Of a stretch of 64,000 nucleotides of DNA, positions 28,201 to 31,200 are shown piece by piece; position 1 is the first letter of the stretch; the number at the start of each line of letters is the position of its first letter. The stretch is from Enchytraeus crypticus (taxonomy: Eukaryota > Annelida > Clitellata > Enchytraeida > Enchytraeidae), in contig CAJHZI010000833.1 of the NCBI GenBank assembly GCA_905160935.1, forward strand, positions 921,001 through 985,000, written 5' to 3'. The position numbers and the translations under genes were made by a program. The notes beneath the pieces are model-generated. The model worked only from the letters and a program-made list of their open reading frames with translations, was not told where the DNA came from and searched no databases.

Positions 28201-31200
28201 TTGGCCTTATTTCCAACTCTTTTGTGAAACGTTAATGACGACGAATAGATTGAGCATATATTGATATATATAATAGTTAATAATTTATTAAATTTAATTT
28301 CTTTTTTAAACTATTTAATTTAAATTTAATTTGAGGGTTAGTTGACTAAAATTAAATTATAATGAGATATTTAACTAAGTTATTAATTTTACCTTTAATA
28401 AACGTAGCGGAAAATCCTGCCTTCTGAACGGAACCATCGGATACAAATTTGACGTAGAGTTTGTTGGACGTGGATTTGACATCGTCCGGGACTTGATGTC
28501 CGCAGAACTTTCCAATCAGGTCCGAAGAGTCCTCATGACCATCCCTCACCTCCACGTAGTCATACACACAGTTGTCGTGGTTCTCCACCTACACATAGTC
28601 ATACACACAGTTGTCGTGGTTCTCCACCTACACATAGTCATACACACAGTTGTCGTGGTTCTCCACCTGCACGTGCAGCACGACAAATGGCATGACCAAA
28701 TTATGATCAATTACAAATATTTAACTGATAATGCCAGAAAGGTCAAGAAGGGATTCGAAATTCACTGGCTGGAGCCAGTAGCGATGTCGGTAAGATATTG
28801 GACCGCGAATCAGAATATGCGGGGTTCAAATTCTGGGCTAACCCTTCACCGACATCGCTTTCGAGTGAGGAAACTGACGTTAACATTAGCTTTTGTTTGC
28901 TTTTTCAAATTTTAGTTAAACATTAAAAACTGAAGAGCCAAAGTACTCGCATCTGTAGCTACAATGTTGTCTGTAATAAGTACAACATGGTACGTTCAAT
29001 GAATTAATCACAGTCTATGTTTTGGCATCAAGGAAATCTATTTTATGTAAAGAATTCTGCACTAATTTGATAGTAATCGAAATGGATGGTATCCTGATTA
29101 AGTGTCAGTAATGTTCGTTTAATTGCAGAAATAAGGGCATCGCTTAATTAAACTCTGCGCAAGATATTTTCACAGTGAATGCCAATATTTGGAACACTAC
29201 AAACAAAGGAAAGTTAAACCTACATCTGCGCTGTACTTACTGGGTATAACAAACGTGTAGTATTTTTGAAGCATATCATTTCGCCTGGTGGCCTTAAGTT
29301 TTAAGAAATGAAAATATAAAGAAATGAAGACGACTTTGGAAAAATCACACGTCATAATTATTATGTCACAATTCTACAAAAGTAAATTGCTACGTTATTG
29401 CCTAACAGAGTGAGAGACATTTTTAGATTATTAACTTCGCTGGACGAAGGCATGCTATTAGTAGTTGTGCTAAATGCAGACTGTGATTAGGAGTGCTTGT
29501 TATGAACCAATCATTTGACAGAACACTTGAGAGAATGAGAGAGAGAGAGAGAGCGAGGCGAAATGAGAGAGAGAAAGAGATAGAGAGTGGGAATGAGAGA
29601 GAGTGGGAATGAGAAAGAGATAGAGAAAGAGATAGATAAATAGATTGAGAGAAAAAGAGAGAAAAAAAGATAGAAAGGACTATCAAAAACACCTTACTTC
29701 AAAAGACTGGAACTTAAGCGCCACAGAGTAGCCCGCTGGTACTGTTAGTTTCCACACGCACTCTTTGTTCGCCTTGTAGAAATCCGGATAGTTAGGACTT
29801 GATAGCATCCCGGACTCGCGGACTATTTCACCCCCGCAGATGGCCTCGTACTGGGCAGTGAACCCCCGCGACTGGCTTCCCCCTGACCGCCGGTACTCTA
29901 TCCACAGTCTGCTATCTGATGACGTCAGAGTTAGGGGCAACTTGTTTGTACCACAGTACCGGCCTATGCAAAAACGAAAGGTAAAGGTTAAGATTTATGA
30001 AATTGATGAAACCAGAGTTCTTTGTGTAATATATTTTGAGCCCAATATATGGGGTCAGGGTCAAAATTATTTGATAACAAAAGAAGTACAATTTAATTCT
30101 AATTTAGAGACAAAATATTCATTGACCGTTTGAATCAAAACAGTTTATGTGAAGAGTTGAAGAGAATGTCTGCAGAAATGTTCAAAAATCTCAGTAAGCG
30201 GTAACACTGCTGCTTAAAGATGTTTTTACATAGTTATGTGGAAAAATAGTTAATATATCTTTTTATGATTTAACAAAAAGTAAATTGATAGCTCACCACT
30301 GGTACACAATACAGTCAATAATTAACATAGAAATTAAAAGATATAAAAAAAATACATGTAAAAATATACATGACAATATGTAAAATAAATGTTAGAGAAT
30401 GCGATTAAAGAGAGTACGCATAAGAACATACAATACAGACACATAAAAGTATAATAGCGTACAGCACATGCACATAAAGGTTCTCTCAAAATAATATACA
30501 TAACGTTGTAAACATAAAAAACTTTTAATAGAAATACAGATGATATGACAGCTGTATATGTCGTACTTACTAATAGTATGATAGAAAAACGTGTTTGTGA
30601 ACTTGCTACTTACAGAGTTTTCGAGCAGAAGTTGATATTTACATGTAGTTATACTTAGAAAGTCAAACTGAACTTGAGCAATTCTCTATAATTTATTAAC
30701 TTTGAATTGTCTTTTTTGTAGCTCAGTATTTCATACCTCAGTTGGTTGCCAGCTACATATTATTTCTCTCTTAGATTACTGTCTAACCGCAGGTCCAATA
30801 ACTATTATAATATTGACTCTATCCATTATTTCTCTTTAACCACTACATACAAATACGCCATAAAATCCACTAAACAATGTTAAATACTTTATTACAGTAA
30901 CATCAGCAACAACAATATAACAAGAGTTCTGCTGTTATCGTTCAAGACAAAATCGAGTAAAATACCCAATAAAGGAGATCTAATCCAGTGCCCGTCCCTC
31001 ACTTCGAGGTAGTCTACAATACAGTTGGTAGTGGCCGGTATCTGAAGCATGGTCACGTTGAGGACTATCTTCTCTCCATGAGTCCCAGAGATCCGCCACT
31101 GACACACCTCGGGGCCCGGGTCGCTCATCGGCCCCTCAGGGGCGGAGACCACGTGGCCGAACGATCCGCTCGGCTCCTGCAGGGTCTGACCGCATTCTGT

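Follow-up and report, generated by a model that had tools for sequence, protein, structure and literature searches.

Tandem-duplication introns are summarised in PMC4974935, the examples being vertebrate ATP2A1 (Hellsten 2011) and 24-bp repeats in fission yeast (Zhu and Niu 2013). The same paper describes potato RdRp, in which a duplication across an intron-exon boundary is associated with a separate new intron, an exon-derived donor, and RNA-seq support. For Drosophila, near-intron-pair introns have been traced to exon duplication or sliding, with stops in the duplicated part in 18/18 sequences and an exon-duplication footprint that is lost with age (PMC2891723), while decay-buffered intron gain treats transcript decay as a safety net (PMC2809761). 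At the level of RNA structure, folds between branch point and acceptor shorten the effective distance in fission yeast (PMC9508853; for budding yeast, Deshler and Rossi 1991, Gahura 2011, and Meyer 2011 are cited there).

Herein, we describe a tolloid gene from the annelid Enchytraeus crypticus in which the start of one CUB2 exon is present in three tandem copies, of which the first two end in a stop. The gene lies in a stretch of 64,000 nucleotides (the window), and the features needed first are as follows.

19266..40395, minus strand: tolloid gene with 17 recognised exons, encoding astacin, CUB1-2, EGF1, CUB3, EGF2, and CUB4-5 (exon model and Pfam)
29698..29963, minus strand: preceding exon (end of CUB1 and start of CUB2), donor GAA|gtaagg, phase 0 (gene model)
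28667..28668, minus strand: AG1, the old-position acceptor cgtgcag, use of which leads to a stop after 12 codons (gene model and relatives)
28628..28666, minus strand: unit 1, a 39-bp copy of the exon start ending in TAG (direct reading and Tandem Repeats Finder)
28628..28629, minus strand: AG2, a repeat-made acceptor, use of which leads to a stop after 12 codons (gene model)
28589..28627, minus strand: unit 2, the same as unit 1, its final TAG containing AG3 (direct reading and Tandem Repeats Finder)
28589..28590, minus strand: AG3, a repeat-made acceptor and the sole one of the three to give full-length tolloid (gene model)
28550..28588, minus strand: unit 3, the beginning of the open exon for the second half of CUB2 (direct reading and frame check)
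28393..28588, minus strand: tolloid exon for the second half of CUB2, entered in phase 0 and left in phase 1 (gene model)

Proteins of the tolloid/BMP1 type have the domain order astacin, CUB, CUB, EGF, CUB, EGF, CUB, CUB. Pfam matches on the predicted protein (one astacin, five CUB, and two EGF-type) and the exon order agree in giving this arrangement. The gene is an annelid-like tolloid: a 614-residue query found its best relative in the annelid Ridgeia (75% over 96% of the query), and in a tree of 24 rows the window protein groups with Ridgeia and Capitella, with support (86/83) that falls under the tool's star threshold. When AG3 is used, the 17 exons from 40395 to 19266 form a single frame of 936 codons with one terminal stop, in a model whose 5' exons are unplaced and whose first recognised exon is uncertain. 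As this frame is open, a pseudogene was rejected. An apparent extra astacin exon at 38300-38215 was dropped from the model, since it matched three other places in the window and was classed as a dispersed repeat.

On the minus strand, the intron upstream of the second half of CUB2 terminates in ...CTGCACGTGCAG and is followed by three tandem 39-bp units starting at 28666, 28627, and 28588. Tandem Repeats Finder reports the array at 28547-28672 (period 39, 3.2 copies, 96% matches, score 231). The first two units agree base for base and end in TATGTGTAG; unit 3 differs from them at 2 of 39 bases (TAT/TAC and TAG/GAG), ends in TACGTGGAG, and continues as coding exon down to 28393. Each unit start is in phase 0 relative to the 29698 donor that follows FQSFE, and a frame entering at 28666 or 28627 meets TAG after 12 codons, while one entering at 28588 stays open. 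An earlier note on this DNA had proposed that the exon start stands in three in-frame copies (now seen by direct reading, Tandem Repeats Finder, and frames), that the first two carry a stop, and that only the third acceptor leads to an open CUB2; all of this holds. Three local features were also observed: (i) each unit opens with a small possible hairpin, GTGG-AGAA-CCAC; (ii) the old acceptor closes a perfect 12-bp palindrome, CTGCACGTGCAG (28667-28678, minus strand); and (iii) a strong donor-like GAG|GTGAGG lies within the CUB2 exon at 28550/28549 (minus strand), matching 7/9 donor consensus positions.

Short identical repeats are easily miscounted, and an assembly or sequencing artefact, i.e., a real locus with one or two units, would account for the array. 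Since unit 3 stands two bases apart from units 1 and 2, at least two units would be real unless those bases are themselves errors, and we give an artefact a low probability.

A functional tolloid would very probably be made only if the RNA is cut at the last copy, since the first two end in a stop. With AG3, the Pfam CUB2 match covers the whole model (1-110, 143.7 bits); with AG1 or AG2 it is reduced to 1-59 (73.5 bits), and the gene model runs into the stop 12 codons into the CUB2 exon. The acceptors themselves score similarly on a matrix from 15 other sites of the tolloid gene (uncertain first exon excluded; leave-one-out scores -7.9 to 11.1), with 7.1 for AG3 and AG2, 5.6 for AG1, and 1.6 for the exonic GAG form. 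The pyrimidine share is 0.58 for AG1 versus 0.53 for AG3, and the AG-free stretch is 58 nt for AG1 versus 33 nt for AG3, with stretches of at most 34 nt at 6 of the 15 other acceptors. Under the scanning rule the first AG is usually chosen, which would favour AG1; as AG1 is the first AG after its 58-nt AG-free stretch, the rule counts against AG3.

The array could represent a recent damaging allele, in which AG1 is still chosen and the stop 12 codons in leaves a null or weak allele, either heterozygous or on the haplotype chosen by the assembly. This would fit the long AG-free stretch and ordinary score of AG1, as well as the identity of units 1 and 2, which makes the last event look young. 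Against this, the remainder of the 936-codon frame is intact. For a gene silent since the 2-of-39 divergence, a rough calculation resting on those two differences alone puts the chance of finding no stop at ~0.12, or 0.02 with an assumed indel rate; this argument is weak, and a very recent duplication would escape it. Overall, we regard a damaging allele as unlikely.

Comparison with relatives places the old exon boundary at AG1. The segment is single-copy in all 120 relatives listed (of 1114 found, a close congener being absent from the set); 118 of these 120 are ungapped around the junction and 2 have a one-residue insert near it. As none of the 120 listed carries a 13-residue insert in CUB2, read-through of TAG was set aside. 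A second search, with the CUB2 exon alone as query, returned 117 short proteins, most of which we take for frames of one exon read from genomic contigs; the tally is of sequences, not lineages. Directly before V/I-E-N-H-D, 36 of these have Q and 9 have K, after tails unlike FQSFE (just two or three residues long in 6 of the 36 and 3 of the 9, with near-copies among the rows). Of the remainder, 29 have an exonic F..FE, 41 have nothing upstream (26 of these end short of the exon start), and D is found in 2, one exonic and one misaligned. Q or K is what a frame extended upstream into an intron with a terminal CAG or AAG would show at this place. The tally indicates that an acceptor at this exact position is widespread and, by extension, that the exon boundary is old, the additional units having been gained in this lineage. 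A stop-ended copy would truncate such short frames, which are thus unable to reveal one; the nonrepeat tails directly before the exon nonetheless argue against such a copy in those relatives. The view that the acceptor before unit 1 occupies the old position is thus borne out by both comparisons.

The likely breakpoints fall within an imperfect direct repeat of 11 bp, ACGTG[C/G]AGGTG.

28664..28674, minus strand: ACGTGCAGGTG, the left copy of this direct repeat, lying across AG1 and a likely duplication breakpoint
28547..28557, minus strand: ACGTGGAGGTG, the right copy of this direct repeat, where unit 3 ends

The old acceptor context, ACGTGCAG|GTG, matches the end of unit 3, ACGTGGAG|GTG, at 10/11 bases, and prior to duplication the two would have been spaced by one unit; a breakpoint inside the repeat would thus give a unit of exactly 39 bp. 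The array is bounded by AG|GTG at 28667/28666 and at 28550/28549, and with the single copy in 120/120 listed relatives this corresponds to an AGGT-bounded tandem duplication of which the polarity is given by its absence from relatives. The observed junctions carry the exon version left of ACGTG and the intron version right of AG, and the base preceding AG, being G and C in the two sources, is T in the junctions. This bears on the previous suggestion that a GAG codon copied at the unit end became TAG, at once stop and acceptor. The double role of TAG stands, while its origin in GAG is one of two readings of this sequence: a copied CAG acceptor with a single C-to-T transition fits breakpoints in the 11-bp repeat, and may be at least as likely as G-to-T in the GAG codon. 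The second difference between units, TAC to TAT, is itself C-to-T at a CpG. That units 1 and 2 are identical points to an already altered unit as the template of the second duplication, and the exon-edge triplication is probably young.

The earlier note had further read the locus as a splice acceptor moved into former coding sequence. This does not hold, for with AG3 the protein is that of the single-copy gene, with FQSFE|VENHD retained in phase 0; intron sliding was rejected on the same basis, likewise on condition that AG3 is used. The event would instead be an intron lengthening (+78 bp) by exon-edge duplication with the coding position unchanged. Nor does the gene model contain an additional intron: the one already present, 29697-28589, has become longer, and of its two splice sites only the acceptor is new.

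Directly before the first unit, the intron ends in a stretch strongly complementary to the repeat unit itself.

28667..28700, minus strand: intron tail of 34 nt, complementary to the repeat unit and predicted to pair with unit 2 (duplex and fold prediction)
28702..28715, minus strand: candidate branch-point region, immediately 5' of the predicted hairpin (from sequence)

The tail forms a predicted duplex of -30.4 kcal/mol with unit 2 and -30.3 with unit 3; among 9110 other sampled windows (mean -10.2, best -27.5) none was as strong, and neither was any of 6504 GC-matched windows. In the folds predicted for four contexts, the tail pairs with unit 2, and the A of AG1 has an unpaired probability of 0.00 and that of AG2 0.01-0.04, versus 0.70-1.00 for AG3, with the G of AG1 and the G of AG2 predicted as unpaired and bulged. 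Forcing the tail to pair with unit 1, 2, or 3 gave ensemble energies of -57.1, -62.0, and -59.9, respectively, with -62.2 for the free ensemble. The partner of the tail changed with transcript length: of nine growing 3' ends, four early ones paired it with unit 1, four others with unit 2, and the one at 28500 with unit 3. Equally good folding was found in 4/200 whole-sequence shuffles, and foldbacks of equal strength at 34 of 12786 sampled, partly overlapping window positions (the locus itself included). These foldbacks, the bulged G bases, and the changing partner all count against the fold. Of tail shuffles, 5/500 passed cut-offs of 0.05/0.05/0.65 for AG1/AG2/AG3 (real AG3, 0.785 in the longer context), the 0.65 value having been picked after an earlier run whose cut-off of 0.7 the real sequence narrowly missed (0.697); in that run, 1/300 shuffles met all three. 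No known structured RNA was matched at the Rfam gathering score in the window.

A motif at 28707, which we take to be a candidate branch point, lies ~9 nt before the predicted stem, and the stem would end ~7 nt before AG3, leaving an effective distance of ~16 nt. The arrangement raises the possibility of a self-masking duplication, in which the copied exon fragment supplies the second arm of the hairpin, so that the same event both made and hid two wrong acceptors and presented a third. This idea is post hoc, having arisen from seeing the fold, and we consider it doubtful. If true, an exon-edge duplication of this kind would be neutral from birth, providing a route for intron growth into copied exon sequence.

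The predicted exposure of AG3 drops with temperature, from 0.96 at 5 C to 0.79 at 37 C. Together with the similar scores of AG1, AG2, and AG3, this would be compatible with use of all three acceptors at a ratio that matters, with AG1 and AG2 serving as unproductive splicing that lowers tolloid or, if the product is stable, yielding a short secreted protease that ends in half of CUB2. There is no sign of conservation (one copy in the 120 listed relatives), such that any regulated role must be new; we judge this quite improbable, more so than a damaging allele. Recursive splicing is far less probable again. Units 1 and 2 each have the form GT...AG, AG1 and AG2 being AG|GT sites, so the intron might be taken out stepwise, 39 or 78 nt at a time, with each acceptor regenerating a donor, and CAG|gtggag at AG1 agrees with the donor consensus at 6/9 positions, the 16 donors of the gene itself agreeing at 4-8. 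After a first step, however, the donor would be GAA|gtggag (4/9), and 39 nt is too short for the usual animal intron.

Similar architecture is found elsewhere in the same gene.

27669..27892, minus strand: tandem array of ~41 bp a unit with acceptor-like modules (T-rich stretch and CGCAG), reaching up to the EGF1 acceptor
24866..24909, minus strand: decoy copy of the EGF2 exon start including TAG (44 bp, 97.7% identical), within a minisatellite of the preceding intron
24537..24662, minus strand: EGF2 exon (gene model)

The EGF1 acceptor is the last module of its row, preceded by five modules that each carry CGCAG. The EGF2 decoy lies 244 bp upstream of the real start, and its use would lead to a stop; being followed by gtattg, it is a possible decoy acceptor or 41-nt pseudoexon. 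At EGF1, EGF2, and CUB2 alike, the full-length frame takes the last member. The window is repeat-rich, with 110 rows from Tandem Repeats Finder, and of 23 merged arrays of period at least 20 the CUB2 array alone shares more than a single base with any recognised tolloid exon. No excess of these 23 arrays near exon edges was detected: the 33 edges comprise 17 exon starts (the first uncertain) plus 16 donors, and 6 of them have such an array within 20 bp, versus a mean of 4.6 after shifting (P 0.28), and as the shifted controls are similar, this nearness needs no special cause. Separately, a dispersed repeat of ~100-130 bp (80-89% identical) occurs at seven places in the window, counting the query at 28735-28910 (minus strand), a copy immediately 5' of the CUB2 acceptor region, and has no Rfam match at gathering score; the further copies are at 34408-34538, 26062-26187, 41553-41670, 9611-9738, 52195-52318, and 23430-23526. 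An open frame at 17854-18144 (minus strand) resembles by eye a retrotransposon reverse transcriptase fragment, with no Pfam match at 0.001.

Our preferred explanation combines direct-repeat-mediated duplication, splicing at AG3, decay of AG1/AG2 transcripts, and the masking hairpin; as a whole, we hold it somewhat more probable than the contrary. In it, the short direct repeat formed by ACGTGCAG|GTG at the old acceptor and ACGTGGAG|GTG 39 bp into the exon would have enabled tandem duplication of the first 13 codons, and one of the copies would then have been duplicated a second time, in an order read from the units. The copies being in frame, a mis-included one would lengthen CUB2 by 13 residues. 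Substitutions in the upstream copies would have turned the unit end into TAG, acceptor and stop at once. Functional mRNA would arise by splicing to AG3, leaving the protein unchanged and the intron 78 bp longer, and transcripts spliced at AG1 or AG2 would meet the early stop and presumably be lost to nonsense-mediated decay. The predicted pairing of the tail with unit 2 would place AG1 and AG2 inside the hairpin and AG3 ~7 nt past its base, near the candidate branch point.

The locus is of wider use as a small natural construct: three near-identical in-frame copies at an old boundary, two with stops, make rules of acceptor choice testable, i.e., first AG, distance, structure, and decay as a safety net. 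The two parallel cases in the tolloid gene suggest that repeat-rich genomes may produce such duplications repeatedly. In the open-licence literature we found no report of an exon start that is triplicated and masked by one of its copies, nor, judged by title, of a tolloid gene with a tandem duplication of this kind.

Set against ATP2A1 and fission yeast as presented in PMC4974935, the CUB2 exon edge shares AGGT-bounded tandem exon copies, presumed removal of the upstream copies as intron, and a protein that would be unchanged; as with the 24-bp repeats of fission yeast, several short tandem copies lie within one intron. It differs in that no intron arises anew, one already present being extended on its 3' side through a new acceptor, and in that splicing is here deduced from sequence. 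With potato RdRp (PMC4974935) it has in common a duplication that touches the intron-exon boundary and splicing signals from the parental boundary, whereas the copied piece here is exonic plus at most an acceptor motif. A duplicated proto-splice site, stops in the copy, and decay as a safety net are shared with the Drosophila introns and decay-buffered gain (PMC2891723 and PMC2809761); unlike in Drosophila, where the footprint is lost, it is here nearly intact, and the coding position does not shift, which speaks against sliding. The predicted fold would resemble those of yeast (PMC9508853) in its place, between a candidate branch point and the acceptor presumed to be used, and in covering nearer AGs; it would differ in that the second hairpin arm is a copy of the exon itself. 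The exon-edge triplication is a variant of known effects of tandem duplication on introns, with possible masking by its own copy as the new part.
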